Shown here: piece by piece, positions 21,832-42,535 of the stretch
Position numbering within the stretch: the stretch's first letter is position 1
How the letters are laid out: every line of letters begins with the position of its first letter
Assembly: GCF_028553725.1 (NCBI RefSeq)
Contig: NZ_CP067124.1
Coordinates: 2,924,001 to 2,988,000 of the forward strand
DNA from: Paracoccus alcaliphilus
GTDB lineage: Bacteria; Pseudomonadota; Alphaproteobacteria; Rhodobacterales; Rhodobacteraceae
Direction of reading: 5' to 3'
Length of the DNA stretch: 64,000 nt
Translations under genes and position numbers: made by a program
The notes under the pieces: generated by a model
Database searches by the model: none
Told to the model about the DNA's origin: nothing
What the model saw: only the letters and a program-made list of their open reading frames with translations

Positions 21832-23112
21832 TCACACCGTTTTCATCGCCACCCCCGCGACATAGGTCTGCGCGATGCTGCGGTCGTCGCCCATGATCTG
21901 GAGGATGAACAGCTCTTCGGCCAGCGTCTCGGCCCGGTCGGAACGCAGGGCCATGGCCGGGGTGGCGCGGCTGTCCAGAACCACCAGATCGGCCATGGAG
22001 CCAGGGGCAAGGGTGCCGATCTGATCCTCCATCCCCAGAACCTTCGCATTGCCGCGGGTGATCCAGTGGAAGGCCGACAGGGCCGTCAGCTTCTGGCCGC
22101 GCAGTTGCAGGATCTTGTAGCCCTCGTTCAGCGTTTGCAGCATCGAATAGCTGGTGCCGCCGCCGACATCTGTGGCGATGCCGCTGGTGATGCCCGCGGC
22201 GCGCAGACCGGCCTTGTCGAACAGGCCCGAGCCAAGGAACAGGTTCGAGGTCGGGCAGAAGACCGGATGGCTGCCGGTCTCGGCCATGCGGGCGATCTCG
22301 CGCGGCTCGAGGTGGATCGAATGGCCCAGAAGGATCCGGTCGCCCAGCAGGCCATAGCTTTCGTAGATATCCAGATAGTCGCGCGCCTGCGGGTAAAGGC
22401 TGAGGGTGAAATCGATCTCGTCGCGGTTTTCCGACAGATGGGTCTGGATATGGCAATCGGGGTGTTCGCGGACCAGTTGGCCCGCCATCTCCATCTGTTC
22501 GGGGGTCGAGGTGATGGCGAAACGCGGGGTGATCGCGTAACGCTGGCGGCCCTTGCCGTGCCAGCGGGCGATCAGCGCCTTGCTGTCGTCATAACCCTGC
22601 TGCGGCGTGTCCAGAACCTCGGGCGGGGCGTTGCGGTCCATCATCACCTTGCCCGCGACCATCGCCATGTTGCGGGCATGGGCAGCGGTGAACAGAGCGT
22701 CAGCCGATTGCGGATGGACCGAGCAGAAGGCGACGGCGGTGGTGGTGCCATGCGCCGTCAGCAGGTTCAAGAAAGCATCGGCCATGGCCGGGGCATGGCC
22801 CTGCTGGGCAAAGCGGGCTTCCTCGGGGAAGGTATAGGTGTTCAGCCAGTCCAGAAGCTGCGCGCCCCAGCTGGCGATCACCTGCACCTGCGGGAAGTGG
22901 ATATGGGTGTCGATGAAGCCCGGCAGGATCAGATGCGGGCGGTGGTCGATTTCCGGCAGGCCGGGCCGGGCGAGTTTCGCGTAATCGTCCACCGCGAGGA
23001 TGCGGCCACCTTCGATCAGGATGGCGCCGTCCTCGAGATAGAGGTGGTTGTCGTCGGTATCGGTGGGGTCGGCGTGAAAGCCGAGAATGCGGCCCCGGAT
23101 CAGCTGTTGCAT
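21832..23112 (-). CDS. guaD: Guanine deaminase
   Basis: GuaD deaminates guanine to xanthine, which feeds the adjacent xanthine dehydrogenase. The 426-aa amidohydrolase has the metal motif GFIDTHIHFPQ, the ring-binding QTHLSENRDEI, GHSIHLEPREI, FCPTSNLFLGSG and the catalytic ATDVGGGTSYSML, all characteristic of the family. Its start overlaps the 3' end of xdhC by 13 bases, so it is the last gene of an xdhA-xdhB-xdhC-guaD operon. Confidence 0.94.
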   Translation of the reverse strand: MQQLIRGRILGFHADPTDTDDNHLYLEDGAILIEGGRILAVDDYAKLARPGLPEIDHRPHLILPGFIDTHIHFPQVQVIASWGAQLLDWLNTYTFPEEARFAQQGHAPAMADAFLNLLTAHGTTTAVAFCSVHPQSADALFTAAHARNMAMVAGKVMMDRNAPPEVLDTPQQGYDDSKALIARWHGKGRQRYAITPRFAITSTPEQMEMAGQLVREHPDCHIQTHLSENRDEIDFTLSLYPQARDYLDIYESYGLLGDRILLGHSIHLEPREIARMAETGSHPVFCPTSNLFLGSGLFDKAGLRAAGITSGIATDVGGGTSYSMLQTLNEGYKILQLRGQKLTALSAFHWITRGNAKVLGMEDQIGTLAPGSMADLVVLDSRATPAMALRSDRAETLAEELFILQIMGDDRSIAQTYVAGVAMKTV

Positions 23113-23840
23113 GGATATTTATTCACCAAAGATATGTCAGTCAGCCGCGCGATCAGTTCGGCGGCGGCGAAGGCGGCGATGACCGCCGGGCGTTTGTCGC
23201 TGCTGAACCCTGCGCCGATGGGGCAGATCAGCGGCGTGGAATCGATGCCGCGCGCGCGGGCGAAGCGGGTGAACTGGGCGCGTTTGGTGGCGCTGCCGAT
23301 CATGCCGATATAGGCGAGATCGTCGCGGGCAAGCGCCTCGGCGGCCAGCAGGAAATCCAGCGCGTGGTCGTGGGTCAGGATCACCACGGCGCTGCCGGGG
23401 CGGGCGGCGCGGATATCGGCTTCGGGCAAGGGCGTCAGTTTCGTGGTGATGCCGGGGGCGGCGCGGGCCAGTTCCTCGGCCCTGCCGTCGATGAGGGAGA
23501 CATTGACCGGCAGTGGCTGCAAGGCCAGCGCCAGCGCCCGACCGACATGGCCCGCACCGAAGACCAGCACATCGGGATGCTGTTGCGGCGTGGGGCCGCG
23601 ACGGTCCAGCGCAAGGACCACCCTGCCCCCGCAGCACTGGCCGATCTCGGGGCCGAGGGGGATGTCCATTTCGGCCTCGGCCTCGTCCGAGGCCAGCATC
23701 TGCCGGGCGCGGTCGATGGCCATGTATTCCAGCTGACCGCCGCCGATGGTGCCCTCGACGCGGGTGGGGCCGACGAACATTTCGGCGCCGGCCTCTCGCG
23801 GGGTGGACCCGCGGGCCGATATGACCCGCACACGGATCAT
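23100..23840 (-). CDS. xdhC: Xanthine dehydrogenase accessory protein XdhC
   Basis: XdhC binds the sulfurated molybdenum cofactor and inserts it into XdhB. The 246-aa protein has GSTPREAGAEMFVG, EGTIGGGQLEYMA, a Rossmann segment VLVFGAGHVGRAL and YIGMIGSATKRAQF. It lacks roughly 20-30 residues seen at the N-terminus of many XdhC proteins and begins directly at MIRVRVISARGS. The ATG at 23840 overlaps the xdhB stop (ATGA). Downstream it overlaps guaD. Confidence 0.92.
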   Translation of the reverse strand: MIRVRVISARGSTPREAGAEMFVGPTRVEGTIGGGQLEYMAIDRARQMLASDEAEAEMDIPLGPEIGQCCGGRVVLALDRRGPTPQQHPDVLVFGAGHVGRALALALQPLPVNVSLIDGRAEELARAAPGITTKLTPLPEADIRAARPGSAVVILTHDHALDFLLAAEALARDDLAYIGMIGSATKRAQFTRFARARGIDSTPLICPIGAGFSSDKRPAVIAAFAAAELIARLTDISLVNKYPCNS

Positions 23841-26158
23841 TTTCGCCCCGGTTCCTGACGATGGGCCTCGATCGCCATCAGCACGCGTTCGGGCGTGGCC
23901 GGGGCGTCCAGACGGGCCGGTTCACGATAGTCGCCGAAGGACGCCACCGCCATATTGATTGCCTCGAACACGCTGATGCCCAGCATGAAGGGTGGCTCTC
24001 CGACCGCCTTGGAGCGCTTGATGGTGCGTTCGCTGTTTTCCGACCAGTCGGCCAGTTTTACGTTGAAGATGCGCGGCTTGTCCGAAGCCAGCGGGATCTT
24101 GTAGGTCGAGGGCGCGTGGGTGCGCAGGCGGCCCTTGTCGTCCCACCAGAGTTCCTCGCAGGTCAGCCAGCCCGCGCCCTGCACGAAGGCGCCCTCGACC
24201 TGGCCCTTGTCGATGGCCGGGTTCAGGCTGCGCCCGACGTCATGGATCACGTCGGCACGGTCGATCACATATTCGCCGGTCAGCGTATCGACCGACACTT
24301 CGGACACCGCCGCGCCATAGGCGTAGTAATAGAAGGGCCTGCCGCGCCCGGTCGCGCGGTCCCAGTGGATCTTGGGCGTCTTGTAGAAGCCCGCCGCCGA
24401 CAGGTGGATGCGCGCCATATAGGCGGCGTTGATCACCTCGGCCCACGGGATATCGCGGTCGCCCACGCGGATATGGCCGGGGACGAATTTCACGTCCTCG
24501 CGCGGGGCCTGCCAGCGTTCGGCGACGAAGTCGATCAGCCGCGCCTTGATCTGTTCGGCCGCGTCCAGCGCCGCCATGCCGTTGAGGTCGGTCCCCGAAG
24601 AGGCCGCCGTGGCCGAGGTATTGGGCACCTTTTCCGTCGTGGTGCGGGTGATCTTGATCCGCGAGATGTCGCATTGGAACGCCTCGGCCACGACCTGCGC
24701 CACCTTGGTGTTCAGCCCCTGCCCCATCTCGGTGCCGCCATGATTCAGCGCGATGGACCCGTCGGAGTAGATATGGATCAGCGAGCCCGCCTGATTGAAC
24801 CATGTCGCGGTAAAGCTGATGCCGAATTTCACCGGGGTCAGCGCGATGCCCTTGCGGATCACCCCGCCCTTCGCATTCCAGTCCAGCACCGCCTGACGGC
24901 GCGCGTGATAATCGCTGGAGGCCTCGATCTCCTGAAAGATGCGGGGCAGGATCTGGTCGTTGACCTCTTGATGATAGGGGGTCAGCTGCCCGTTCTGGTA
25001 AAGGTTCAGCTTGCGGATTTCCAGCGGGTCGCGGCCAAGCGCATAGGCGATTTCCTCGGTGATGCGTTCGGCGACGATCACGCCCTGCGGGCCGCCGAAG
25101 CCGCGAAAGGCGGTATTGCTGACGGTATTGGTCTTCATCGGATGCGAACTGACGCGCACATCCGGGTAATAATAGGCGTTGTCGGCATGGAACAGCGCCC
25201 GGTCCGTCACCGGCCCCGACAGGTCCGAGGAAAAGCCGCAACGGGCATACCAGTCACCCTCGACCGCCAGAATCCGGCCATCGTCGTCAAAGCCGACCTC
25301 GTAATCCACGACGAAATCGTGGCGCTTGCCGGTGGCGGTCATGTCGTCATCGCGGTCGGGACGGATCTTGACCGCGCGGCCCCATTTCCGGGCGGCCATG
25401 GCGGCGACGGCGGCAAACAGGTTCATCTGCGTTTCCTTGCCGCCGAACCCACCGCCCATGCGGCGCACATTCACCACCACCGAATGGTTGGGCACACCCA
25501 GCACATGGGCCACGACATGCTGCACCTCGGACGGGTGCTGGGTCGAGACGTTGATGACCACGTCATCATCCTCGCCCGGCACGGCCATCGCGATCTGGCC
25601 CTCCAGATAGAAGTGATCCTGCCCGCCGATGCCGAAACGTCCCTTGATGCGGCGCGGCGCGGCTTCCATCGCCGCCGAGGCATCACCCCGGCGCAGGGTC
25701 AGCGGTTCGGTCACATAGCCCATGCCCGCGTCACGCGCCGCGATCGGGTCCAGCGCATGGGGCAGCGCCTCGTATTCGATCCTGGCCTTATGGGCGGCGC
25801 GGCGAGCCTGATCGCGGGTCTCGGCGATCACGGCAAAGACCGGCTGACCCCAGAACAGCACCACCCCATCGGCAAAGATCGGGTCGTCATGCTTGCCATT
25901 GGCCGACACATCGTTGTCGCCCGGAATGTCGGTGGCGGTCATCACGTCGATCACGCCCGGCGCGGCGCGCACCGCGTCCAGATCCATGCGGACGATCCGG
26001 CCATGGGCGCATTGCGACAGGCCCAGACAGGCATGCAGCAAGCCATGCGGCTCGGTCAGGTCGTCGGTGTAATCCGCCCTGCCCTGCACCTGCTTGATGG
26101 CGGAATCGTGGATCGTGTCGGTATGGGCAAGGCCCCGGATGGTGGTTTCGTCCTTCAT
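23837..26158 (-). CDS. xdhB: Xanthine dehydrogenase molybdenum-binding subunit
   Basis: The large subunit (773 aa) carries the molybdopterin site where xanthine or hypoxanthine is hydroxylated to urate. Key segments are GQDHFYLEGQIAMA, RRMGGGFGGKE, NTAFRGFGGPQG, the TEMGQGLNTK loop and the catalytic base Glu721 in KAVGEPPFMLG. Two ATGs are possible: 26164 overlaps the xdhA stop, while 26158 (MKDETT) is better spaced from GGGAGA; the latter is used. It is the second gene of xdhABC. Confidence 0.94.
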   Translation of the reverse strand: MKDETTIRGLAHTDTIHDSAIKQVQGRADYTDDLTEPHGLLHACLGLSQCAHGRIVRMDLDAVRAAPGVIDVMTATDIPGDNDVSANGKHDDPIFADGVVLFWGQPVFAVIAETRDQARRAAHKARIEYEALPHALDPIAARDAGMGYVTEPLTLRRGDASAAMEAAPRRIKGRFGIGGQDHFYLEGQIAMAVPGEDDDVVINVSTQHPSEVQHVVAHVLGVPNHSVVVNVRRMGGGFGGKETQMNLFAAVAAMAARKWGRAVKIRPDRDDDMTATGKRHDFVVDYEVGFDDDGRILAVEGDWYARCGFSSDLSGPVTDRALFHADNAYYYPDVRVSSHPMKTNTVSNTAFRGFGGPQGVIVAERITEEIAYALGRDPLEIRKLNLYQNGQLTPYHQEVNDQILPRIFQEIEASSDYHARRQAVLDWNAKGGVIRKGIALTPVKFGISFTATWFNQAGSLIHIYSDGSIALNHGGTEMGQGLNTKVAQVVAEAFQCDISRIKITRTTTEKVPNTSATAASSGTDLNGMAALDAAEQIKARLIDFVAERWQAPREDVKFVPGHIRVGDRDIPWAEVINAAYMARIHLSAAGFYKTPKIHWDRATGRGRPFYYYAYGAAVSEVSVDTLTGEYVIDRADVIHDVGRSLNPAIDKGQVEGAFVQGAGWLTCEELWWDDKGRLRTHAPSTYKIPLASDKPRIFNVKLADWSENSERTIKRSKAVGEPPFMLGISVFEAINMAVASFGDYREPARLDAPATPERVLMAIEAHRQEPGRK

Positions 26159-26160
26159 GG

Positions 26161-27612
26161 TCATTCTCCCACCGCATATTGCAGCCGCACGGGCAGATCG
26201 GGTTCGGATTGTTCCAGCCAGAAGCGGCGGAAAAGGTTGGCCGCCACCGTCCGGCGATAATCGGCACTGGCCCGCCAGTCGGACAACGGCTGGAAATCAT
26301 CAGCCACGGCCCGCGCCGCCGCGTCGAAACTGTCGGCGGTGAAAGGCTGGCCGGTCAGCGCGGCCTCGGCTTTGCCAGCGCGTTTCGGCGTGGCGGCCAT
26401 GCCGCCGAAGGCCACACGAGCATCGGTGATGATACCATTTTCAACGCTGACGCAAAAGCCGGTGGCGACGGCGGTGATGTCGCTGTGGCGGCGTTTGCTG
26501 ACCTTGTAGGCGGCGATTTTCGCATCGGACCGCGTGGGGATGATGACGGTTTCCACGAATTCACCCGGCGCGCGGTCCTGCTTGCCGTAATCGATGAAGA
26601 AATCCTCCAGCGCGATTTCACGCCGCGCCGCGCCCTTGCGCAGCACGATCCGCGCGCCAAGCGCGATCAGCAAGGGCGGCATGTCCCCAATGGGCGAGCC
26701 ATTGGCGATATTCGCGCCGATCGTGCCCATATTGCGCACCTGCCAGCCCGCGATCCGCAGCAGGTAATCGTAAGCCTGCGGCAGATGCTGGCGAAACAGC
26801 GGCGCGGCCTCGGAATAGGTCACGCCCGCGCCCAGACGCATCTCGTCCCCGGTGACGGTCACGTCCTTCATCAGATGGCCGATGAACACCGCAGGAGAGA
26901 TGTCGCGCAGGAACTTGGTCACCCACAGCCCGACATCGGTGGCACCGGCAACAATGGTCGCCTTGGGGTTTTCCTCCAGCACCGCGGCCAGATCGTCGGT
27001 ATCGGCGGGAATGACGGCGCGTTCGCCGCCCTTGGACAGCTCGACCCGGCCGCCCCGCATGTCGCGCAGCCTGGCCGCCACCGTCTCGCGTTCCGCGGCC
27101 AGCGCGTCCATCGCCTGCCCGCCCGCGCGGCCTGCGGCCAATGCGGCGTTGATGATCGGCTCGTATCCGGTGCAGCGGCACAGATTGCCTTGCAGCGCGT
27201 TCTCGATATCGGTGACGCCGGCATCCGGCTGTGTCATCCACAGCCCATAAAGCGCCATCACGATGCCCGGCGTGCAGAACCCGCATTGGCTGCCGTGGTT
27301 TTCCACCATCGCCTGCTGGATCGGGTGCAGCTCGCCTTCCGGTCCCTTCAGATGTTCGATGGTGACGATATGGCAGCCGTGGCAGGATGCCAGAAAGCGG
27401 ATGCAGGCATTGATCGGCTCATAGATCAGCCCGGCATCCGTCAGCCGTCCCAGCATGACCGTGCAGGCGCCGCAATCGCCCTCGGCGCAGCCTTCCTTGG
27501 TGCCGGTCAGGCGGCGGTTGATGCGCAGGAAATCCAGCAGGGTTTCCGAGGCGCCGACCTCGGTCAGCCGGACATCCTGACCGTTCAGCAGAAATTGCAG
27601 GCTGGGCATCAT
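26161..27612 (-). CDS. xdhA: Xanthine dehydrogenase small subunit (2Fe-2S, FAD)
   Basis: The 483-aa subunit passes electrons from XdhB to NAD+. An N-terminal ferredoxin domain has CAEGDCGAC; an alpha-helical domain has QCGFCTPGIVM and GNLCRCTGYEPI, the second 2Fe-2S cluster. The FAD domain shows IVAGATDVGLWVTK and NMGTIGANIANGSPIGD. An AAGGAA site before ATG 27612 sets the start (the frame is open ten codons further). It is the first gene of the operon and is divergent from a LysR-type regulator gene 115 bases away. Confidence 0.94.
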   Translation of the reverse strand: MMPSLQFLLNGQDVRLTEVGASETLLDFLRINRRLTGTKEGCAEGDCGACTVMLGRLTDAGLIYEPINACIRFLASCHGCHIVTIEHLKGPEGELHPIQQAMVENHGSQCGFCTPGIVMALYGLWMTQPDAGVTDIENALQGNLCRCTGYEPIINAALAAGRAGGQAMDALAAERETVAARLRDMRGGRVELSKGGERAVIPADTDDLAAVLEENPKATIVAGATDVGLWVTKFLRDISPAVFIGHLMKDVTVTGDEMRLGAGVTYSEAAPLFRQHLPQAYDYLLRIAGWQVRNMGTIGANIANGSPIGDMPPLLIALGARIVLRKGAARREIALEDFFIDYGKQDRAPGEFVETVIIPTRSDAKIAAYKVSKRRHSDITAVATGFCVSVENGIITDARVAFGGMAATPKRAGKAEAALTGQPFTADSFDAAARAVADDFQPLSDWRASADYRRTVAANLFRRFWLEQSEPDLPVRLQYAVGE

Positions 27613-27727
27613 GGCGTTCCTTGTGGCTGTGAACCCGTTCAACGACAGGGTAAGCCGGAAAAAGTCATTGCGAAATCACTTCTGACACGGAAGACTTTAC
27701 ATAAATCATTGAAAGCGACCCATTGCC

Positions 27728-28621
27728 ATGTCCTATCTGGAAAGCCTGCGCGTGTTCGTCCGCGTCGTCGAACTGGGCTCTATCACGGCCGGGGGCCGGG
27801 ATTTGCGGCTGTCCCCCGCCGTTGCCTCGAACCGCGTCAAGGATCTGGAGCAGCGTTTCGGCGTCCGTCTGCTGAACCGCACCACCCGGAAACTGACCCC
27901 GACCGAGATCGGCCGCAGCTTCTATGACCATGCCCGCCGCGTCATCGACACGTTGGACGAGGCCGAGGCGATGGTCAGCAGTTTCTCGGGCAAGCCGCAG
28001 GGGGTGATTCGGCTGACCGCGCCGCTGGGGCTGGGCAGGCGACTGATCGCGCCGCTGATCCCGCCCTTCTGCGAGGAAAACCCCGGCATCGACATCCGGC
28101 TGCGGTTGTCGGATCGCAGCATCAACATCGTCGAGGACGCCATCGACCTGGCCTTCTTTCTGGGTCAGCCCGCCGATTCCGCACTGAAATGGCGCAAGAT
28201 CGCGGATTGCCCGCGGCTGCTGGTCGCCTCGCCCGATTATCTGGAACGGCACGGCACGCCGTCAGGCCCCGGCGATCTGGCCGATCACAACTGCCTGCTG
28301 CTGCGCTATCCGCGCAGCCCGGAATATTTCTGGGTGCTGCAAACCCCCGACGGGCCGCAGAAGATGATGGTCAAGGGCCGCTATGACACCGATGACGGCG
28401 ATGTGCTGCGGCAATGGGCACTGAACGGTCACGGCATCGCCAACCGCCCGCTGTATGAAGTGGACGAGGATATTCGCGAGGGCCGTCTGGTTCAGGTCCT
28501 GCCGCAGACTCCGCCCGAGGTCGCGCAATTCGGCTGCCTGACGCCGCATCGCCGCTTGCAGGATCCCAAGGTGCGCATGTTCGCCGATATGGCGGTGCGG
28601 GAACTCAAGCGGTTCTTCTGA
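27728..28621 (+). CDS. LysR-type transcriptional regulator
   Basis: The 297-aa protein has an N-terminal winged helix-turn-helix (LRVFVRVVELGSITAGGRDL, then SNRVKDLEQRFGVRLLNRTTRKL) and a C-terminal effector-binding domain (GVIRLTAPLGLGRRLIAPL). This is the CrgA/AaeR-like branch of the family. It lies divergent to xdhA, and LysR genes commonly regulate the divergent operon, so control of purine oxidation by a purine or urate ligand is a fair inference. The effector is not known. Confidence 0.9.
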   Translation: MSYLESLRVFVRVVELGSITAGGRDLRLSPAVASNRVKDLEQRFGVRLLNRTTRKLTPTEIGRSFYDHARRVIDTLDEAEAMVSSFSGKPQGVIRLTAPLGLGRRLIAPLIPPFCEENPGIDIRLRLSDRSINIVEDAIDLAFFLGQPADSALKWRKIADCPRLLVASPDYLERHGTPSGPGDLADHNCLLLRYPRSPEYFWVLQTPDGPQKMMVKGRYDTDDGDVLRQWALNGHGIANRPLYEVDEDIREGRLVQVLPQTPPEVAQFGCLTPHRRLQDPKVRMFADMAVRELKRFF

Positions 28622-28642: not shown

Positions 28643-29911
28643 CTATTTGTCCTGCTTCTCGTCTTTCAGCGTCTCTTTCTGGGTGATCAGCCGGGCCGAG
28701 TTCTGCCCCGACAGGAACACCCACAACCAGCTGAGCGAGACGAACAGTCGCGACCGCGCACCGATCAGGAAATAGATATGGGCGATGCCCCAGACCCACC
28801 ACGCCAGCCAGCCGCGCATCCTGAAGCGGCCATATTCGATCACCGCCGCATTGCGCCCGATCGTCGCCAGATTGCCCATATGGCGGTAACGGAACGGCGC
28901 GGGCGCGGGCTTGCCCCGCAGCCGCGACAGGATCGTGCGCGCGGCATGGTTGCCCTGCTGCTTGGCGGCGGGCGCGACGCCCGGCACGTCCTTGCCGCCA
29001 GACATGACATGCGCCGTATCGCCCAGCACGAAGATCGCCGGATCGTCCGGCAGGGTCAGATGATCGCTGACGATCACCCGGCCCGCGCGGTCGGCCTCGG
29101 CCCCCAGCCAGTCCTTGGCGCGTGATGCCTGCACCCCGGCGGCCCAGATGGTGGTGCGGGCGGGGATCAGCGCGCCATCGACGACGATGCCGGTCGAATC
29201 GCATTCGGTGACCGGATGGCCGGTCATCACCTGAACCCCGCGCCGGGTCAACGCGCCTGCCGCATATTGTGACAGACTCTCGCTGAAGGCGGGCAGGATG
29301 CGCGGCCCGGCCTCGATCAGCAGCACGCGGGCCTTGCGGGTATCGGTGCGGCGGAATTCGCGCGGCAGGATGCGATGGGCCAGTTCGGCGATGATGCCGA
29401 CCAGCTCGACCCCGGTCGGCCCGGCCCCGATCACGGCGAAGGTCAGCAGCGCCTGCCGTTCGGCCATGTCCTCGGTCAGTTCGGCCCGCTCGAAGGCCAG
29501 CAGCATGCGGCGGCGGATGGTGGTCGCATCCTCCAGCGTCTTCAGCCCCGGCGCGTCGGCCTCCCACGCGTCCTTGCCGAAATAGGCGTGCCGCGCGCCG
29601 GTCGCGACCACCAGCGTATCATATGCGATCCGCTGGCCGGTGCGCAGGATCACCTCTCGCGCGCCGCGATCCACGCCTTCGACCGTGCCCAGCAACGTGG
29701 TCACGTCCCTGCGGTCGCGCAGCAGCGCCCGGATCGGCCAGGCAATGTCCGAGGTCGCCAGCAACGTCGTGGCGACCTGATACAGCAGAGGCTGGAAAAG
29801 GTGGTGGTTGCGCTGGTCGATCAGCGTGATGTCGCAATCCGCGCCCTTCAGGCCCAGAACGGTCTGCAAACCGGCAAAGCCTGCCCCAATGACGACGACC
29901 CGATGTTTCAT
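28643..29911 (-). CDS. ndh: Type II NADH:quinone oxidoreductase
   Basis: NDH-2 is a single-subunit, non-proton-pumping NADH dehydrogenase on the inner face of the membrane. The 422-aa flavoprotein has the FAD-binding VVVIGAGFAGLQTV, a second nucleotide fold VIGAGPTGVELVG, and FVLGDTAHV near the second FAD motif. The C-terminal region WLAWWVWGIAHIYFL is a membrane-associated helix typical of the family. Converges with the LysR gene. It may reoxidise NADH made by xanthine dehydrogenase, but that is inference from position. Confidence 0.9.
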   Translation of the reverse strand: MKHRVVVIGAGFAGLQTVLGLKGADCDITLIDQRNHHLFQPLLYQVATTLLATSDIAWPIRALLRDRRDVTTLLGTVEGVDRGAREVILRTGQRIAYDTLVVATGARHAYFGKDAWEADAPGLKTLEDATTIRRRMLLAFERAELTEDMAERQALLTFAVIGAGPTGVELVGIIAELAHRILPREFRRTDTRKARVLLIEAGPRILPAFSESLSQYAAGALTRRGVQVMTGHPVTECDSTGIVVDGALIPARTTIWAAGVQASRAKDWLGAEADRAGRVIVSDHLTLPDDPAIFVLGDTAHVMSGGKDVPGVAPAAKQQGNHAARTILSRLRGKPAPAPFRYRHMGNLATIGRNAAVIEYGRFRMRGWLAWWVWGIAHIYFLIGARSRLFVSLSWLWVFLSGQNSARLITQKETLKDEKQDK

Positions 29912-31609: not shown

Positions 31610-31743
31610 CCTTCGTTCCCCCTCATTATCTCTCATCCATTGATAACCGAAGCGGCCCTGCCCGCACGAGACACGATGCCTGCAAGGCAGTCTATAGTTT
31701 TCATGTAAAATCCCGGCGCCATCGCAAGGATGCCCGAAAACGG

Positions 31744-31774
31744 CCCAGCCTTCCGCACCATGCGGAAGGCTGGG
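31744..31774. terminator. Perfect 14-bp hairpin between permease and uraH
   Basis: CCCAGCCTTCCGCA pairs perfectly with TGCGGAAGGCTGGG around a 3-base loop. It lies 60 bases beyond the permease stop on the minus strand. There is no strong T tract, so a transcript-end or processing role is inferred from structure only. Confidence 0.55.
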
Positions 31775-34326: not shown

Positions 34327-35492
34327 CAGTAGGCCTTTCCGCGCGCAGACACCGGCCACAGGGTTTCGACCTTGCCGCCGCGCACGCCGACATACCAGTC
34401 ATGGACGTTGCAGGTCGGGTCGCAATGGCCGGTGACCAGCTTCAGCTTTTCATTAATCTTCAGCACGCCTTCGGGGTCATCGACCACGCCATGCTCGTCG
34501 CTGCACTTGATGTATTTCACATCGACGCGGCCATAGATGAAGGGCAGACCGCTATCGACCGACTGCGCCTTCAGCCCCGCATCGACCACCGCCAGATGCG
34601 GCTTGGCGTGGGACATCACCGAGGTCAGGATGAACAGTGCGTTTTCCCATTCACCCTGATCGATCCGCTTGCCGTCCTTGTCCAGAATACGGCCATAATC
34701 CGCATCCATGAAGGCATAGGAGCCGCATTGCAATTCGTTGTAAACGCCCGAATTGCTTTCGAAATAATAGCTGCCGGTGCCGCCGCCCGAGACGATCTCC
34801 GGCTCCAGCCCGATGGCTTTCAGCGCCTCGACCGCGTCACTCACCTGCGCGATGGCGGCGTCGAGTTTCGCCTTGCGATCCTCATAGCTGTCCATGTGCT
34901 GCATCGCGCCCTGATAGGCCTGGATGCCGGTGAATTTCAGCCCTGCCGCCGCGTCGATGGCCTTTGCGATCTCGACCACTTCCGGCGTGGTCTTGACGCC
35001 GCAGCGGCCCGCGCCGCAGTCGATTTCCACGAAACATTCGATGGTGGTGCCGTGCTTGACAGCCGCCGCCGACAGGTCGGCCACGTTGGCCACGTCATCG
35101 ACGCAGACGATCACCCGCCCGCCGCTGACCTTGGGCATCCGCGCCAGCCGGTCGATCTTGGCCGGGTCGCGGACCTGATTACTGACCAGAATGTCCTTGA
35201 TCCCGGCGCGGGCAAAGACCTCGGCCTCGCTGACCTTCTGGCAGCAGACGCCGATGGCGCCGCCCAGTTCCATCTGCAATTTCAGCACATCGACGGATTT
35301 GTGCATCTTGCCATGGGCGCGGTGGGCCATGTTATGGGCCTTGGCGTAATCGCCCATCTTCTTGATGTTCCGCTCCAACGCGTCCAGATCGAGGATCAGG
35401 CAAGGCGTCTGGATATCGGCCTCATCCATCCCCGGCAGGGCGGGAACGTCGAAACCCACTTCAAGATTGTCGAGATTCACAGGCGCATTCAT
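34326..35492 (-). CDS. bhcC: Beta-hydroxyaspartate aldolase BhcC
   Basis: BhcC condenses glycine with glyoxylate to (2R,3S)-beta-hydroxyaspartate. The 388-aa protein is a PLP enzyme of the alanine-racemase-fold D-threonine aldolase family: DIQTPCLILDLDALERNI at the N-terminus, the PLP lysine in RAHGKMHKS (Lys62), ECFVEIDCGAGRCGV, and metal ligands near the C-terminus in TGHCDPTCN. A GAGGAG site before ATG 35492 fixes the start. It is third in the bhcABCD operon, 11 bases after bhcB. Confidence 0.9.
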   Translation of the reverse strand: MNAPVNLDNLEVGFDVPALPGMDEADIQTPCLILDLDALERNIKKMGDYAKAHNMAHRAHGKMHKSVDVLKLQMELGGAIGVCCQKVSEAEVFARAGIKDILVSNQVRDPAKIDRLARMPKVSGGRVIVCVDDVANVADLSAAAVKHGTTIECFVEIDCGAGRCGVKTTPEVVEIAKAIDAAAGLKFTGIQAYQGAMQHMDSYEDRKAKLDAAIAQVSDAVEALKAIGLEPEIVSGGGTGSYYFESNSGVYNELQCGSYAFMDADYGRILDKDGKRIDQGEWENALFILTSVMSHAKPHLAVVDAGLKAQSVDSGLPFIYGRVDVKYIKCSDEHGVVDDPEGVLKINEKLKLVTGHCDPTCNVHDWYVGVRGGKVETLWPVSARGKAY

Positions 35493-35503: not shown

Positions 35504-36466
35504 TCAGGTCCAGGGCAGCTTGTCGAGATCGACATTGCCGCCGGTGATGATGACGCCGACGCGCTTGCCGGCAAAAGTTTCGGGGTTCTTCAGGATCGTG
35601 GCCAAAGGCACCGCGCTGGAGGGTTCCAGCACCACCCGCAGATGTTTCCACGCCAGTTTCATCGCATCGACGATCTCCTGATCCGAAACCGTCAGGATGT
35701 CCGACACATGGTTTTTCACGAAATGCCAGGTCAGGTCCTTCAGCGGCACCAGCAGCCCGTCGGCGATGGTCTTGGGCGCATCATCGGCGATGATATGGCC
35801 CGCCTTGAAACTGCGATAGGCATCGTCGGCCTGTTCGGGTTCGGCCGCGATCACCTTCACCTCGGGCGCCAGCGTCGCCAGCGTCAGGCAGGTGCCCGAA
35901 ATCATGCCGCCGCCGCCGATGGGCGCCACCACGGCATCCAGCCCATCGGTCTGCTCCATGAACTCTTTGGCGCAGGTGCCCTGTCCCGCAATCACCCGCG
36001 GATCGTTATAGGGGTGGACGAAATCGCCACCCGTTTCGGCCTGCACCCTGGCGAAGGTCTCTTCGCGCGATGAGGTCGAGGGCTCGCATTCGGTGATCTG
36101 GCCGCCATAGCGGCGCACCGTGTCCTTCTTGGCCTGCGGCGCGGTGCGGGGCATGACCACGTTGCAGGGAATCCCCCGCAGCATGGCGGCATAGGACAGG
36201 CAGGACGCATGGTTGCCCGAGCTGTGCGTGGCAACCCCCTTGGCCGCCTGCGCGTCGTCCAGCCCGAACACCGCGTTGGTGGCGCCGCGCACCTTGAAGG
36301 CGCCCGGCTCCTGGAAATTCTCGCATTTGAAGAACAGCTGCGCGCCCGTCACCTCGTTCAGATAGTCCGAGACGCGGATCGGCGTGCGGCGGATATGCGG
36401 CTTGATCCGCTCATGCGCCGCCAGCATGTCCTCATAGGTCGGGATATACATCGGCTGATCCTTCAT
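35504..36466 (-). CDS. bhcB: Beta-hydroxyaspartate dehydratase BhcB
   Basis: BhcB removes water from beta-hydroxyaspartate to give iminosuccinate. The 320-aa PLP fold-type II enzyme looks like a serine/threonine dehydratase: FFKCENFQEPGAFKVRGA with PLP lysine Lys58, THSSGNHASCLSYAA, the phosphate-binding loop PIGGGGMISG, and IITGGNVDLDKLP near the end. The start at 36466 overlaps the bhcA stop; an internal ATG (MYIPTYEDM) five codons on is an alternative. Function is set by operon context and matches the Paracoccus order. Confidence 0.9.
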   Translation of the reverse strand: MKDQPMYIPTYEDMLAAHERIKPHIRRTPIRVSDYLNEVTGAQLFFKCENFQEPGAFKVRGATNAVFGLDDAQAAKGVATHSSGNHASCLSYAAMLRGIPCNVVMPRTAPQAKKDTVRRYGGQITECEPSTSSREETFARVQAETGGDFVHPYNDPRVIAGQGTCAKEFMEQTDGLDAVVAPIGGGGMISGTCLTLATLAPEVKVIAAEPEQADDAYRSFKAGHIIADDAPKTIADGLLVPLKDLTWHFVKNHVSDILTVSDQEIVDAMKLAWKHLRVVLEPSSAVPLATILKNPETFAGKRVGVIITGGNVDLDKLPWT

Positions 36467-37656
36467 CACGCGGCCTTTTGCTGCGCCCCGGCGACGCTTT
36501 GGCGGTAATGTTCCTGCGCGGCGGCGACGCCCGAGCCCAGCTGCACTGGCAGCCCCAGATCGGCCATGACCATTTCCGCCGTGGCGATGCCCGACAGCGC
36601 CATCACATCGGTCAGGCTGCCCAGATGGCCGATGCGGAAGACCTTGCCCGCGACATCGCCCAGACCGGTGCCGAAGGCCACGCCATAGGTGTTCAGCGCG
36701 TGGCTGACGACCTTGTTGGCGTCGAAACCTTCCGGCACGCGAATGGCGCTGACGCTGTCCGAATACAGTTCCGGCCGCGCGGCGCAAAGCTGCAACCCCC
36801 ATGCGGAAACCGCCTTGCGCACGCCTTCGGCAATGCGGTGGTGGCGGGCAAAGACGTTCTCCAGCCCTTCCTCCAGCAGCATTTCGCAAGCGACGTTCAG
36901 CCCGTTCAGCAAGCCGACCGGCGGCGTATAGGGATAGCCGTTGGCGGCGTAACCCTTGGCCATGTCGCGGATGTCGAAGAAGGTGCGCGGCAGTTTCGCG
37001 GTCTCGACCGCTGCCATCGCCTTGGGCGAGAAGCCGACGATGGCCAGACCCGGCGGCAGCATGAAGCCCTTCTGGCTGCCGGTGACAGCGATATCGACGC
37101 CCCATTCGTCCATGCGGAAATCATAGCAGCCGATGGACGACACCCCATCAACGAACAGCAGCGCCGGGTGGCCCGCCGCGTCCAGCGCGCGACGGACAGC
37201 GGCGATGTCAGAGCGCACGCCGGTCGCGGTCTCGTTATGCGTGGCCAGAACCACCTTGATTTCGTGACCTTTGTCGGCGGTCAGGATTTCCTCGAACTTG
37301 TCGGCCGGGACGCCCTCGCCCCATTCCTGCATGACGACCTGCACATCCAGCCCGTGACGCTGGCACATGTCGATCCAGCGATGGCTGAACATGCCGTTGC
37401 GCGTGGCCAGAACCTTGTCGCCCGCCGACAGCGTGTTGGTGATCGCGGTTTCCCAGCCGCCGGTGCCGGTCGAGGGGAAGACAAAGACTTCCGCCTGCGT
37501 CGATTTCAGTACCTTCTTCACGCCTTCCAGCGCGGGGTGCAGAATCTTGCCGAAAACCGGGCTGCGGTGGTCGATCGTGGGCATATCCACGGCCTTGCGC
37601 AGCACCTCGGGGATGTTCGTCGGGCCGGGAATGAAAATCGGGTTCTGGTTAGACAT
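36466..37656 (-). CDS. bhcA: Aspartate-glyoxylate aminotransferase BhcA
   Basis: BhcA transaminates glyoxylate with aspartate to give glycine and oxaloacetate. The 396-aa class V aminotransferase begins NPIFIPGPTNIPEVL, has FPSTGTGGWETAI, LFVDGVSSIGCYDF and the PLP lysine in VTGSQKGFML (Lys196). It resembles serine-glyoxylate aminotransferases; the bhc context supports the aspartate-specific role. An AGGAGG site precedes ATG 37656. It is the first gene of the bhc operon and is divergent to bhcR. Confidence 0.92.
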   Translation of the reverse strand: MSNQNPIFIPGPTNIPEVLRKAVDMPTIDHRSPVFGKILHPALEGVKKVLKSTQAEVFVFPSTGTGGWETAITNTLSAGDKVLATRNGMFSHRWIDMCQRHGLDVQVVMQEWGEGVPADKFEEILTADKGHEIKVVLATHNETATGVRSDIAAVRRALDAAGHPALLFVDGVSSIGCYDFRMDEWGVDIAVTGSQKGFMLPPGLAIVGFSPKAMAAVETAKLPRTFFDIRDMAKGYAANGYPYTPPVGLLNGLNVACEMLLEEGLENVFARHHRIAEGVRKAVSAWGLQLCAARPELYSDSVSAIRVPEGFDANKVVSHALNTYGVAFGTGLGDVAGKVFRIGHLGSLTDVMALSGIATAEMVMADLGLPVQLGSGVAAAQEHYRQSVAGAQQKAA

Positions 37657-37842
37657 GGCGTGTCCTCCTACGGTCAATCTACACATTAACCTTGGGGGCT
37701 TGCGCTTGCAATTTTTCTGGAAAATAATTCCGTCATCCGAAAATATCAGGGGTTATCGTTCAGGATCAACAGGTTGCACTTTTCCACTTGCGAGAGGTGA
37801 TTTTCATCCACAGAAATAGGCATTCTTAAGCAGAGGTATAAA
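37657..37842. promoter_or_regulatory. bhcA-bhcR divergent control region
   Basis: This 186-base AT-rich gap holds the promoters of bhcABCD (minus) and bhcR (plus). At 37713-37724 the sequence TTTTC-TG-GAAAA is an inverted repeat of the kind bound by IclR proteins, and a TTTTCCAC half site lies at about 37777. BhcR binding to the equivalent region in P. denitrificans, modulated by glyoxylate, is established; the exact site proposed here is inference. Confidence 0.5.
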
Positions 37843-38649
37843 ATGGCCGAACCGACTCGCCGCCGTGGCCGCCCGCGCAGCACGACCGAAACCTCGGGCA
37901 CCATTCAGGCGCTGGACCGGGCACTGGATATTCTGGACCTGCTGGCCGCCCATCCGGGCCTGACGCTCAGCGAGGTGGCCGAGAAGATGGGGCAGTCGCC
38001 CTCGACCGTGCATCGGGTGCTGCATACGCTGGCCGCGCGGGGCGTGGCCGAAAGCGACACCGCCACCCAGACATGGCATATCGGCCCGGCGACCTTCCGG
38101 CTTGGCTCGGCCTTCATGCGGCGTTCCGGCATTGTCGAGCGCGCCCGCCCGGTCCTGCGCACACTGATGGAACATACCGGCGAAACCGCCAATCTGGGCA
38201 TCCTGAACGGCGATGCGGTGATGTTCGTCAGCCAGGCCGAAACCCACGAGACGATCCGCGCCTTCTTTCCGCCCGGCACCCGCTCGCCCCTGCATGCCTC
38301 GGGGATCGGCAAGGCGCTGCTGGCCTTCGGGCGGCCGGAAACCTTGCAAGTGTTGTTGCAGAACGGCGAGTTGCAGCGGTTCACCGACAAGACCCTGACC
38401 ACGCGCGAGGCGCTGACCGAGGATATGGCCCGCATCCGCAACCGCGGCTTTTCCTTCGATGACGAGGAACGCACCCGCGGCATGCGCTGTATCGCGGCCC
38501 CGGTCTTCGACCTGACCGGAGAGGCCATCGCCGGCGTCTCGGTCAGCGGCCCGACCCATCGCATCGGGCCAGAGCATGTCAAGACATTGGGCGCCGTGGT
38601 GGCCGCCGCCGCATCCGAACTGTCCGCCGCAATGGGGGCGGATCGATAG
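37843..38649 (+). CDS. bhcR: IclR-family regulator BhcR
   Basis: The 268-aa protein has an N-terminal basic arm (RRRGRPRS), a winged helix-turn-helix (LTLSEVAEKMGQSPSTVHRVL), and an IclR effector domain (GETANLGILNGDAVMFVSQ, PLHASGIGKALLAF, GMRCIAAPVFD). In P. denitrificans BhcR regulates the bhc operon in response to glyoxylate. The gene is divergent from bhcA at the expected place. Its AT-rich upstream region offers no strong ribosome site but AGAGG lies near the ATG. Confidence 0.92.
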   Translation: MAEPTRRRGRPRSTTETSGTIQALDRALDILDLLAAHPGLTLSEVAEKMGQSPSTVHRVLHTLAARGVAESDTATQTWHIGPATFRLGSAFMRRSGIVERARPVLRTLMEHTGETANLGILNGDAVMFVSQAETHETIRAFFPPGTRSPLHASGIGKALLAFGRPETLQVLLQNGELQRFTDKTLTTREALTEDMARIRNRGFSFDDEERTRGMRCIAAPVFDLTGEAIAGVSVSGPTHRIGPEHVKTLGAVVAAAASELSAAMGADR

Positions 38650-38710: not shown

Positions 38711-40012
38711 TCAATGCCCGCCGAAGAAGGCGAACTTGATGACGAACAGCCCTGCCACGATCCAGGTCGCGGCATGGACCTGCGATGCCTTGCCGGTCAG
38801 CAGCTTGATCAGCGCATAGCTGATGAAGCCGAAAGCCAGACCGTTCGCGATCGAATAGGTCAGCGGCATCGCCAGCGCGGTCAGCACGGCAGGCGCGGCC
38901 TCGGTCACGTCGTCCCAGCTGATCTCGGTCAGTTCACGCATCATCAGCGTCGCGACATAGAGCAGCGCGGGTGCCGTCGCATAGGCGGGCACCGATCCCG
39001 CCAGCGGCGCAAAGAACATCGCCAGCAGGAACAGCCCCGCCACGACCAGCGCCGTCAGCCCGGTGCGCCCGCCCGCCTGAACGCCCGAGGCGCTTTCGAC
39101 ATAGGCGGTGGTCGAGGACGTGCCCAGCAGCGAACCCGCCGTGATCGCGGTGGAATCCGCCATCAGCGCCCGGCCAAGGTTCTTGTTCTGGTGGGTCGGC
39201 CCCTCTTTCAGCAGGCCCGCGCGTTTGGCAACGCCGATCAGGGTGCCGGTGGCGTCGAACACCTCGACCAGCACCATCACCAGAATGACGTGGAAAATGC
39301 CGTAATGCAGCGCGCCCATCACATCCAGTTGCAGGAAGGTCGGCATGATCGAGGGCGGCATCGACATGATTCCCCCGAATTCAGTGACGCCCAGCAGGAT
39401 CGCCAGGACGGTCACGACCAGAATCCCGATCAGGATCGCGCCCGTCACCTTCAGCGCGTCCAGCGCCACGATGACGAAAAAGCCGACGATGGTCAGCAGC
39501 GTGCCGGGATTGGTCAGATCGCCCAGGGTCACCAGCGTGGCCGGGTGATCGACCACCAGCCCCGAGGATTGCATGGCGATGATGGCCAGAAACATCCCGA
39601 TGCCGGCCGCGACGCCGCTGCGCATGGATACGGGGATGCCCGCGATCAGCCAGCGCCTCAGCCCGGTGATCGACAGGATCAGGAAGATGATGCCCGAGAT
39701 GAACACCGCCCCCAGTGCCTGTTGCCATGTAAAGCCCATGGCCCCCACGACGGTAAAAGCGAAAAAGGCGTTCAGCCCCATCCCCGGCGCCATGGCGATG
39801 GGCCAGTTCGCCCACAGCGCCATGATGGCCGAGCCAAGCGCGGCGGCCAGGCAGGTCGCCACGAAAACCGCGTTGCGATCCATGCCGGTGCTGGACAGGA
39901 TGTCCGGGTTGACGAAAATGATATAGGCCATCGTCAGGAAGGTGGTGATCCCTGCGATCACCTCGGTCCGGACATTGCTGCCATGTTCCGCAAGCTTGAA
40001 ATAGCGTTCCAT
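38711..40012 (-). CDS. NCS2/AzgA-type purine permease
   Basis: The 433-aa membrane protein has about 12-14 helices and the AzgA-family signature: EVIAGITTFLTMAYIIFVNP, MDRNAVFVATCLAAALGS, PGMGLNAFFAFTVV, and STTAYVESASGVQAGGRTGLTA. Characterised relatives are proton symporters for adenine, guanine and hypoxanthine. Guanine or hypoxanthine import would feed guaD and xdhABC in this window. The start at 40012 follows GGAGGACC; it is divergent from the puuE-uraD gene. Confidence 0.9.
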   Translation of the reverse strand: MERYFKLAEHGSNVRTEVIAGITTFLTMAYIIFVNPDILSSTGMDRNAVFVATCLAAALGSAIMALWANWPIAMAPGMGLNAFFAFTVVGAMGFTWQQALGAVFISGIIFLILSITGLRRWLIAGIPVSMRSGVAAGIGMFLAIIAMQSSGLVVDHPATLVTLGDLTNPGTLLTIVGFFVIVALDALKVTGAILIGILVVTVLAILLGVTEFGGIMSMPPSIMPTFLQLDVMGALHYGIFHVILVMVLVEVFDATGTLIGVAKRAGLLKEGPTHQNKNLGRALMADSTAITAGSLLGTSSTTAYVESASGVQAGGRTGLTALVVAGLFLLAMFFAPLAGSVPAYATAPALLYVATLMMRELTEISWDDVTEAAPAVLTALAMPLTYSIANGLAFGFISYALIKLLTGKASQVHAATWIVAGLFVIKFAFFGGH

Positions 40013-40238
40013 AAGGTCCTCCGAGCGGCCTCCTCCGGCCACGATCCGCCGAACCTATCGGGGTGGGCCTGTTCCTCACAATCGCCCTCATCCTGCAAGT
40101 CTTTCAATAGTGTTTTGAAAGCAAGGTAAATTTTGCGGTGATCTTTGTCGTTTTATTGATACAGAATTTCACTCTTGCCCGCTTGCCGTGCAGCCGCGCA
40201 AAGGCTTTGCTGTATGGAATCTGCCACAGGAGGATTCC

Positions 40239-41645
40239 ATGCGCTACAGCCGCGATCTGCGAGGATATGGCGAAACCACACCCGACCCGCAATGGCCCGG
40301 CGGCGCGAAGATCGCGGTGCAGATCGTCGTCAATTACGAAGAGGGCGGCGAAAACAGCATCGAGCATGGCGACGCCGCATCCGAGGCCTTCCTGTCCGAG
40401 ATCATCGGCTGTCAGCCCTGGCCCGGCCAGCGTCACTGGAACATGGAATCGATCTATGACTATGGCGCGCGGGCGGGCTTCTGGCGGCTGCACCGGCTGC
40501 TGAAGGATATTCCGGTCACCGTTTACGGCGTTGCCACCGCGCTGGAGCGCAGCCCCGGACAGGTCGCGGCGATGCAGGCGGCGGGTTGGGAAATCGCCAC
40601 CCACGGGCTGAAATGGATCGATTACAGGGACGTCCCCCGCGAGGTCGAGGCCCAGCATATCGCCGAAGCCATCCGCCTGCACGAGGCCGTGACCGGCAGC
40701 CGCCCCTTGGGTTTCTATCAGGGCCGCACCTCGATGAACACGGTCGCGCTTGGCTGCGAGGAGGGCGGCTTCGAATATCTGGCCGACACCATCGCCGACG
40801 ACCTGCCCTATTGGCATGTGCATCAGGGCCGCCCGCAACTGATGGTGCCTTATACGATGGACGCCAATGACATGCGGTTTTCCAGCGGTCAGGGCTTTGG
40901 CACCGGAGTCGAGTTCTTCGACTATCTGCGCGACAGCTTCGACGTGCTTTATGCCGAAGGTCAGGCGGGTGCGCCCAAGATGATGTCGATCGGGCTGCAT
41001 TGCCGCCTTGCCGGTCGTCCGGGCCGGGCAATGGCGATCCAGCGGTTCCTTGACCATGCCCGCGCGCATGAGGGCGTCTGGTTCGCCAGCCGTCTGGATA
41101 TCGCGCGGCACTGGGCGGAAACCCATCCCTTCCAGCCCCGGCTTCGCCCGTCCGAAATGTCGCGCGATGATTTTGTGGCGAAATTCGGCGGCATCTATGA
41201 ACATTCGCCCTTCATCGCCGAACGTGTCTGGGACGCCGAGATGGGCGCGGTCCATGACAGCGCGGCGGGCCTGTCGGCGCGGATGGCGCAGGTGTTTCGC
41301 AGCGCCAGCGATCAGGAGCGGCTGGGCGTACTGGTCGCCCACCCCGATCTGGCAGGCAAACTGGCGCAGGCGAAACGCCTGACCACGGAAAGCACCGCCG
41401 AACAGGCCAGCGCCGGGCTGGACAGCCTGACCGACGAGGAACGCGCCACCTTTACCGCGCTGAACGACGCCTATGTCGGCAAGCACGGCTTTCCCTTCAT
41501 CATCGCTGTGCGCGACCATGACAAACCCGGCATCCTTGCCGCCATGCAGCGCCGCGTCGAAAACGACACCGTAACCGAGCGGGCCGAGGCCGAAAGACAG
41601 GTCACGCGCATCGCCGAACTTCGCCTGAAAGAGGTTCTGACATGA
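40239..41645 (+). CDS. puuE: Fused allantoinase PuuE / OHCU decarboxylase UraD
   Basis: A 468-aa two-domain protein. Residues 1 to about 300 are the PuuE allantoinase, a polysaccharide-deacetylase-like fold (GGAKIAVQIVVNYEEGGENS, GWEIATHGLKWIDY, FYQGRTSMNT, ISIGLHCRLAGRPGR-like) that opens allantoin to allantoate without the cofactor arrangement of classic allantoinases. The last ~165 residues are a UraD domain (FVAKFGGIYEHSPFIAERVW with the catalytic His, LGVLVAHPDLAGKLA, NDAYVGKHGFPFIIAVRD) that decarboxylates OHCU to S-allantoin. A CAGGAGG site precedes ATG 40239. The 3' end overlaps the next gene by four bases. Confidence 0.92.
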   Translation: MRYSRDLRGYGETTPDPQWPGGAKIAVQIVVNYEEGGENSIEHGDAASEAFLSEIIGCQPWPGQRHWNMESIYDYGARAGFWRLHRLLKDIPVTVYGVATALERSPGQVAAMQAAGWEIATHGLKWIDYRDVPREVEAQHIAEAIRLHEAVTGSRPLGFYQGRTSMNTVALGCEEGGFEYLADTIADDLPYWHVHQGRPQLMVPYTMDANDMRFSSGQGFGTGVEFFDYLRDSFDVLYAEGQAGAPKMMSIGLHCRLAGRPGRAMAIQRFLDHARAHEGVWFASRLDIARHWAETHPFQPRLRPSEMSRDDFVAKFGGIYEHSPFIAERVWDAEMGAVHDSAAGLSARMAQVFRSASDQERLGVLVAHPDLAGKLAQAKRLTTESTAEQASAGLDSLTDEERATFTALNDAYVGKHGFPFIIAVRDHDKPGILAAMQRRVENDTVTERAEAERQVTRIAELRLKEVLT

Positions 41646-42535
41646 ACGATCTTCCCCCCGAAGGCGCCCCCACGGGCGATATCGCAGAAATCCCGCAGGA
41701 ACAGCTGCGTTTCAACCCCTATGCCGGGCCCGTCGCGGGCCTTCCGCCGCAGACCGGGATGACCACCGACACGGCGATCTTTACCGAAGCCTATGCGGTG
41801 ATTCCCCGCACGGTGATGCGCGATATCGTCACCTCTTATCTGCCGGGCTGGCAGGGGATGCGGATGTGGATGCTGGCGCGTCCGCTGACCGGATTTGCCG
41901 AGACCTTCAGCCAGTATATCGTCGAACTGGCCGAGGGCGGCGGCAGCGACAGCCCCGATGACGACCCCGAGGTGCAGCACGCCCTGTTCGTCACCGGCGG
42001 CGAGATGTGCGTGACCATCGACGGCACCGACCATCTGCTGAAACCGGGCGGCTTCGCCTATATCCCGCCGGGCACGCCGTGGAAGGTGCATAACTGCACG
42101 CCGGGCAATACCGGCTTTCACTGGTGGCGCAAACGCTGGCAGCCCTGCAATGGCGTGGACAAGCCCGCCCCCATCGTCGCGCATGAGGACCAAATCCCGC
42201 CCTCGCCCATGCCCGATACCGATGGCGCATGGGCCACGATCCGCTTCATGGACCCCGCCGATCTGAGCCACGACATGCATATCACGCTGGTCAGCTTCAA
42301 GCCCGGCGGCTCGATCCCCTTTGCCGAAACCCATGTGATGGAGCATGGCCTGTTCGTGCTGGAAGGCAAGGCCGTCTATCGCCTGAACCGCGACTGGGTC
42401 GAGGTCGGCCCCGGCGATTACATGTGGCTGCGCGCCTTCTGCCCCCAGGCCTGCTATGCGGGCGGGCCGGGCCGGTTCCGTTACCTGCTGTACAAGGACG
42501 TGAACCGGCACGCGCCCCTGTGGCCGAACCGCTGA
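41642..42535 (+). CDS. (S)-ureidoglycine aminohydrolase (bicupin, AllE/UGHY-like)
   Basis: This enzyme releases ammonia from S-ureidoglycine, giving S-ureidoglycolate. The 297-aa protein has two cupin domains: the first around ALFVTGGEMCVTIDGTDHLLKPGGFAYIPPGTP, the second with ETHVMEHGLFVLEGKAVYRLN and VGPGDYMWLRAFCPQACY, where the manganese-binding residues of UGHY lie. The ATGA overlap with the puuE-uraD stop shows translational coupling. The family assignment is strong; some databases label relatives as a bifunctional allantoicase, which I do not claim. Confidence 0.88.
   Translation: MNDLPPEGAPTGDIAEIPQEQLRFNPYAGPVAGLPPQTGMTTDTAIFTEAYAVIPRTVMRDIVTSYLPGWQGMRMWMLARPLTGFAETFSQYIVELAEGGGSDSPDDDPEVQHALFVTGGEMCVTIDGTDHLLKPGGFAYIPPGTPWKVHNCTPGNTGFHWWRKRWQPCNGVDKPAPIVAHEDQIPPSPMPDTDGAWATIRFMDPADLSHDMHITLVSFKPGGSIPFAETHVMEHGLFVLEGKAVYRLNRDWVEVGPGDYMWLRAFCPQACYAGGPGRFRYLLYKDVNRHAPLWPNR

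Follow-up and report, generated by a model that had tools for sequence, protein, structure and literature searches.

Why should genes for the breakdown of purines surround genes for the assimilation of glyoxylate? The question is raised by a 20.7 kb locus (positions 21832 to 42535) in a 64,000-nucleotide stretch of DNA from Paracoccus alcaliphilus, hereafter the window, which is part of contig 1 of a 4.77 Mb genome. The original prediction for this DNA listed guaD, xdhABC, puuD, uraH, a puuE-uraD fusion, a ureidoglycine aminohydrolase (the cupin enzyme below), two permeases and bhcABCD with bhcR, the genes of the beta-hydroxyaspartate (bhc) cycle. All of these were found, and the locus also encodes a LysR-type regulator and an NDH-2-like flavoprotein. 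We read the locus as a catabolic region leading from purines to oxaloacetate, and give this reading a probability of roughly 0.78. The chemistry of the individual steps is already known. The joining of purine and bhc genes is not unique to this genome, and the same grouping in many related bacteria suggests that the two operate as a single pathway.

The enzyme set from guanine to allantoate is complete in the window. Most genes were called above curated NCBIfam cut-offs; the calls for the second permease, PuuD and the flavoprotein are based on Pfam, and the LysR protein is assigned at the family level only. Guanine would be deaminated to xanthine by guanine deaminase (guaD, 21832..23112, minus strand; TIGR02967, 554 bits, cut-off 375), and xanthine would be oxidised to urate by xanthine dehydrogenase, encoded with its maturation factor by xdhA (small subunit, 26161..27642, minus; TIGR02963, 621 bits, cut-off 467), xdhB (molybdopterin subunit, 23837..26164, minus; TIGR02965, 1297 bits, cut-off 850) and xdhC (maturation factor, 23100..23840, minus; TIGR02964, 264 bits, cut-off 162). 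Urate would then be opened to allantoate by the membrane urate hydroxylase PuuD (29990..31252, minus; PF06181, 456 bits, with a CxxCH motif at residue 344), the 5-hydroxyisourate hydrolase UraH (31256..31609, minus, start picked from the sequence; TIGR02962, 125 bits, cut-off 87, and also PF00576), and UraD and PuuE, a 2-oxo-4-hydroxy-4-carboxy-5-ureidoimidazoline (OHCU) decarboxylase and an allantoinase fused in a single open reading frame (ORF; 40188..41645, plus; TIGR03212, 500 bits, and TIGR03164, 190 bits, both over cut-off). A cupin ureide hydrolase of the allantoicase / ureidoglycine aminohydrolase type (41642..42535, plus; NF040771, 459 bits, cut-off 350) probably converts allantoate to ureidoglycolate and urea, and the ureidoglycolate lyase AllA, which is encoded elsewhere in the genome, would release glyoxylate and urea.

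The second half of the proposed route would join two glyoxylates into one oxaloacetate, with no carbon lost and no ammonia consumed. Its four enzymes are all encoded on the minus strand and all score above curated cut-offs: the aspartate-glyoxylate aminotransferase BhcA (36466..37686; NF045640, 771 bits, cut-off 650), the beta-hydroxyaspartate dehydratase BhcB (35504..36451, start picked from the sequence; NF045641, 584 bits, cut-off 550), the beta-hydroxyaspartate aldolase BhcC (34326..35492; NF045642, 760 bits, cut-off 690; 722 bits to PDB 6qkb) and the iminosuccinate reductase BhcD (33364..34326, start picked from the sequence; NF045643, 566 bits, cut-off 500). The IclR-family regulator gene bhcR (37843..38649, plus; NF045644, 417 bits, cut-off 350) diverges from bhcA across a gap of 156 bp, which completes the gene set of the cycle. 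Read from high to low coordinates, the minus strand carries bhcA, bhcB, bhcC, bhcD, a PbuX-type permease gene, uraH, puuD and the flavoprotein gene, and, past lysR on the plus strand, xdhA, xdhB, xdhC and guaD. Beyond bhcR lie the gene for the second purine permease (38711..40012, minus; Xan_ur_permease, PF00860, 192 bits; the ORF extends to 40042 and we chose the start at 40012), which received no NCBIfam assignment above cut-off, then the puuE-uraD fusion, and then the cupin hydrolase gene.

The linkage was followed in 149 genomes taken as the family of Paracoccus, in a genus sample of 125 genomes, and in 14 control genomes. Genes within 20 kb of BhcC were counted as linked and genes on different contigs as unlinked; the family count covered genomes with BhcC over the cut-off and three purine genes, those for PuuD, AllA and the cupin enzyme. 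BhcC was over the cut-off in 60 of the 149 family genomes; PuuD was present in 143 and the lyase in 138. Within 20 kb of BhcC we found PuuD in 23 of the 60, the lyase in 26, the cupin enzyme in 22, and any of the three in 29. Positions were listed for PuuD in 58 of these genomes, for AllA in 57 and for the cupin enzyme in 55. The remaining genomes have no PuuD or AllA match. The cupin enzyme went unlisted in five genomes: four lack any match to it, and G058 contains two short sub-cut-off fragments, one at a distance of 3 kb from BhcC. By eye, four genomes left out of the count because their BhcC scored below the cut-off (G022, G072, G097 and G146) likewise carry PuuD no more than 20 kb away. 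In the genus sample 78 genomes have BhcC, and 53 of them have PuuD at most 20 kb from it; these are 53 of the 66 genomes that carry both genes on one contig, and 50 of the 53 gaps measure 3.0-5.9 kb. Of the 80 named loci, 55 are flanked by 9 kb or more on each side, and a purine gene is present in 32 of the 55 and three or more in 25, although purine genes were called here by tblastn score, so that the xdh and guaD calls may include paralogues; only 3 of the 25 loci with shorter flanks have one. The closest named relatives are Paracoccus loci, with BhcC identities of 91-96% for the best three. By our rough estimate, random placement would give about 40 kb in 4 Mb, or 1% per gene. Because the linkage recurs in both samples, chance placement is unlikely, and the conserved neighbourhood for which the original prediction had proposed to search within 20 kb is present in related genomes.

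The bhc cycle was characterised through glycolate. An alternative explanation is that it serves glycolate here too, and that its place beside purine genes is incidental or was inherited in one lineage. In this direction points the finding that P. denitrificans requires bhcR to grow on glycolate and glyoxylate, a requirement for which bhcABCD are cited in the same paper (PMC11323563). Homologues of the glycolate oxidase GlcD are present in all 149 family genomes, none of them above the curated cut-off. Nevertheless, among the matches listed, which covered 58 of the 60 BhcC genomes, the best GlcD homologue, itself below cut-off in every genome, is in no case (0 of 58) within 20 kb of BhcC, the nearest being 21.9 kb away, whereas at least one of the three purine genes is that close in 29 of 60; in G098 and G119 the GlcD match is weaker than those listed. 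Of the 23 family genomes in which bhcC and puuD are within 20 kb of each other, 21 by our count have the lyase gene between the two, which fits a single inherited block there; the exceptions are the genome studied here and G100. Against such a block, the linkage is also found in other gene orders and in Hyphomicrobiales. We therefore consider the glycolate explanation improbable.

The gene orders differ widely. Behind bhcD, Paracoccus has the order permease-uraH-puuD-lysR-xdh, and Rhizobium lusitanum has guaD-puuD-lysR-xdhCBA. Beyond bhcR we find uraH-puuE-cupin-allA in Frigidibacter, permease-allA-puuE-uraH-xdhA in R. tropici, puuD-lysR-uraH-puuE-cupin-allA in Aureimonas, and allA-cupin-puuE in Limibaculum. 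Leisingera has the cupin gene beside bhcR and allA-puuE-uraH-lysR-puuD beyond bhcD. On a quick tree of BhcA, BhcB and BhcC, in which 24 of 79 inner branches are open and 60 of 82 rows are labelled (loci with short flanks and no purine gene were removed), the linked or unlinked state needs at least 13 changes, a number that has no shuffle baseline and does not distinguish gain from loss. Taken together, the 13 changes and the differing gene orders point beyond the mere conservation of a single block. Physical joining of the two pathways, as claimed in the original prediction, is thus present and widespread, in differing arrangements. One locus on a contig filed under the cyanobacterium Spirulina subsalsa (L046) has bhcBC about 90% identical to that of the window and probably represents contamination.

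Two further genomes illustrate how the blocks are combined. The BhcC of G238 is 100% identical to the chain in PDB 6qkb, which we take to be the P. denitrificans enzyme; the linkage therefore probably exists in the organism that served to elucidate the cycle. G238 has the order bhcR, bhcABCD, permease (73% identical to that of the window), 8-oxoguanine deaminase (L130, 14513-16006, minus; 698 bits, cut-off 532), uraH, puuD. It shares with the window the four enzymes, the divergent IclR-family regulator bhcR, and a purine permease with uraH and puuD behind bhcD. Over the 48 kb of G238 compared, only the window has puuE-uraD, the cupin hydrolase and a second permease beside bhcR, and xdhABC-guaD beyond puuD, whereas the window lacks the 8-oxoguanine deaminase. 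G023, of the same genus (locus L133), resembles the window in having uraH, puuD, lysR, xdhABC and guaD in one region, arranged as allA-uraH-puuD plus lysR-xdhABC-guaD; unlike the window, its allA adjoins uraH and its genome has no BhcC or BhcA match. The existence of a purine cluster without BhcC suggests that such a cluster either gained or lost the bhc-permease block.

Glyoxylate is formed at the end of the ureide steps, and here the locus is less complete. The ureidoglycolate lyase gene is absent from 21832-42535 but encoded elsewhere in the genome (contig 1, 53131-53586; PF04115, 173 bits), so that the genome as a whole has the genes for purine catabolism to glyoxylate; in relatives the lyase gene is found within the purine cluster. 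Near this lyase gene (L123, 9111-9629, minus) is a gene for a CcrM-like methyltransferase (630 bits, cut-off 830). The step before it depends on the cupin enzyme, whose family, NF040771, is curated as bifunctional allantoicase / ureidoglycine aminohydrolase and scores above cut-off in 135 of the 149 family genomes and in none of the 14 controls. Allantoate amidohydrolase (AllC) is above cut-off in 0 of 149 family genomes (1 of 14 controls is positive, presumably E. coli), and allantoicase is matched in only three, G011, G063 and G125 (0 of 14 controls). The cupin enzyme therefore probably splits allantoate into ureidoglycolate and urea, and we discarded AllC for this step, though relatives of it exist below cut-off. 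An allantoicase role also fits the pattern in G011 and G063, which carry allantoicase and are among the 14 genomes without NF040771 above cut-off; the basis for this is two genomes and the family name. G125 has the cupin enzyme together with pieces of an allantoicase gene, one of them with a stop.

An alternative for this one step, implied by the original prediction, is that the cupin enzyme acts only on ureidoglycine, releasing ammonia, while an unrecognised amidohydrolase makes the ureidoglycine. The cupin protein does exceed the cut-offs of three ureidoglycine aminohydrolase models (NF008376, NF008373 and TIGR03214), and the sub-cut-off AllC relatives found in 131 of the 149 genomes, at 214.5 bits in this one, could have the activity needed. 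However, the complete lack of AllC above cut-off in the family, and the two genomes with allantoicase and no NF040771, make this version unlikely. Two details of the original prediction need correction, its observation being sound and its interpretation otherwise reasonable. The first is the proposal that ammonia from ureidoglycine is used in amination: an enzyme of this cupin family would release urea from allantoate, and the bhc cycle recycles its amino group internally, so that we excluded amination with purine-derived ammonia on established chemistry. The second is the contrast drawn with the route through glyoxylate carboligase (Gcl) and tartronate. Gcl is above cut-off in 0 of the 149 family genomes, this one included, where the best score is 352 bits against a cut-off of 711 (1 of 14 controls is positive, presumably E. 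coli). Gcl was therefore rejected as a competing route for glyoxylate, and there is no alternative route of this kind here. The allantoin regulon of E. coli offers a likeness, with ureide genes and a glyoxylate route under the glyoxylate-responsive IclR-family regulator AllR (PMC11323563); there the route is Gcl and CO2 is lost, whereas the window has the bhc cycle instead.

If the two pathways work together, how might they be regulated? The bhcC and bhcD genes overlap, and the gene for the PbuX-type permease (NCS2; 31836..33329, minus; TIGR03173, 514 bits, cut-off 414) lies 3' of bhcD on the same strand and starts 34 bp after it. The same placement, with a spacing of at most 69 bp between tblastn ends, is found in 12 of 14 Paracoccus loci; these comprise G238 and 13 of the 16 titled Paracoccus, the other three (L113, L114 and L115) being excluded since they had no permease call adjacent to bhcD. 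The permease gene apparently belongs to the bhc operon, and is probably co-transcribed with bhcABCD from a promoter controlled by BhcR. Two strong hairpins follow pbuX (31720..31836, minus; minimum free energy -62.7 kcal/mol, z -5.3) and may act as a terminator between the bhc-pbuX unit and uraH-puuD, which would then probably form a unit of its own. A single transcript from bhcA through puuD was judged unlikely given these hairpins, though a scan for T-tract terminators flagged nothing there.

Upstream of bhcA is a conserved box, TTTCCAGAAAAATTG (37709..37723, minus), which is a candidate BhcR site; TTTYCAGAAAAATTG is present in 15 of 15 aligned bhcA promoters, those of the window and the 14 Paracoccus loci. 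The exact box occurs once in the window, before bhcA. With one mismatch allowed in its first 14 letters, it turned up in 30 of 82 sources at positions outside called genes, always upstream of bhcA. An exact GGAAANNNTTTCC palindrome, which resembles IclR operators, overlaps the box in 6 of 13 relatives scanned, and the bhcA promoter of the window has a longer form with two mismatches. A looser palindrome, TGGAAANNNTTTCCA, with up to three mismatches gave 22 matches in the window against 11.4 expected, above all 100 shuffles; one, differing at two positions, falls within the bhcA promoter, the rest are mostly not near the promoters of this locus, and the motif was set aside. A single BhcR regulon for the whole region was not supported, the candidate box having been found upstream of bhcA only, and alignments of the xdhA, uraH and puuE promoters established no common motif. 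Expression of the bhc genes and growth on glyoxylate both depend on BhcR in P. denitrificans, where glyoxylate raises bhc expression yet weakens DNA binding by BhcR in vitro (PMC11323563). Together with the box and the apparent operon, these data suggest that glyoxylate would boost both its own assimilation and the uptake of the purine that yields it, with the other purine genes controlled otherwise. The xdh, puuE-uraD and uraH-puuD genes would be separate units, perhaps under the LysR protein, whose gene (27728..28621, plus; best model NF040888, 205 bits, below the cut-off of 470) diverges from xdhA, a pair that recurs in relatives.

Several observations weigh against a purine-to-oxaloacetate pathway acting as one. 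None of the three purine genes is within 20 kb in 31 of the 60 family genomes with BhcC, many of which have them on other contigs; PuuD is not within 20 kb in 25 of the 78 genus genomes, 13 of which have both genes on one contig; and no purine gene was found at 23 of the 55 named loci with full flanks. AllA is outside the cluster in this genome, the candidate BhcR box gives no sign of one common regulon, and 12 of the 14 genomes without NF040771 above cut-off also have no allantoicase, which leaves the replacement argument on two genomes. Finally, PuuD is far commoner in the family than BhcC above cut-off (143 versus 60 of 149), and the bhc cycle is therefore no prerequisite for purine breakdown. 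This last count also speaks for an alternative in which purines are mainly a nitrogen source and the bhc cycle clears the leftover glyoxylate, with carbon gain secondary. Purines yield four nitrogens and only one two-carbon unit, which favors such a role. The genes and the flow would be the same as in the pathway we propose, and the two explanations overlap, differing in the selective reason. Nevertheless, a permease in the apparent bhc operon suggests that uptake is driven jointly with carbon assimilation, and an assimilation cycle of four enzymes would be unnecessary for mere removal of glyoxylate. A role chiefly in nitrogen supply is a real possibility, though we lean away from it.

Some other genes in and around the locus deserve mention. 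The NDH-2-like flavoprotein gene between puuD and lysR (28643..29911, minus; PF07992, 157 bits; NDH2_C, 28 bits) has no match of at least 80 bits at the compared loci of other genomes, only at the window's own locus, and is possibly a recent insertion. Just outside guaD there is a match to an IS5-family transposase (19470-20435, plus; 235 bits), with a tRNA-Met gene nearby (19002-19078). Directly after the cupin hydrolase gene follows a DUF1501 and DUF1800 gene pair (42560-45110, minus), with no family link to the pathway.

We did not find the linkage of bhc and purine genes in print in the literature searched, which did not include the 2019 Nature paper on the cycle, where it may be mentioned. 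The parts consulted of PMC11323563, PMC12214560, PMC11166783 and PMC3793230 contain no mention of bhc genes beside purine genes. As far as these parts go, PMC11323563 and PMC12214560 discuss the cycle in the context of glycolate, glyoxylate and ethylene glycol, and the introduction of the former names purines and allantoin as possible sources of glyoxylate. A broader proposal is that across much of the Rhodobacteraceae the bhc cycle has purines, and not glycolate, as one of its main natural sources: bhc genes repeatedly stand beside genes for urate and allantoin, the permease would form part of the bhc operon in the model organism too, and glyoxylate, acting via BhcR, would stimulate purine uptake in a feed-forward manner. 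We offer this generalisation tentatively and regard it as doubtful. The linkage is widespread and recurrent, and the regulatory prediction that follows from the locus, a purine permease under BhcR control, is directly testable in an existing model strain. If the bhc cycle were tied to purines in many species, then its distribution would partly reflect the use of nucleic-acid waste and urate, and these bacteria would keep carbon that the Gcl route would lose as CO2.

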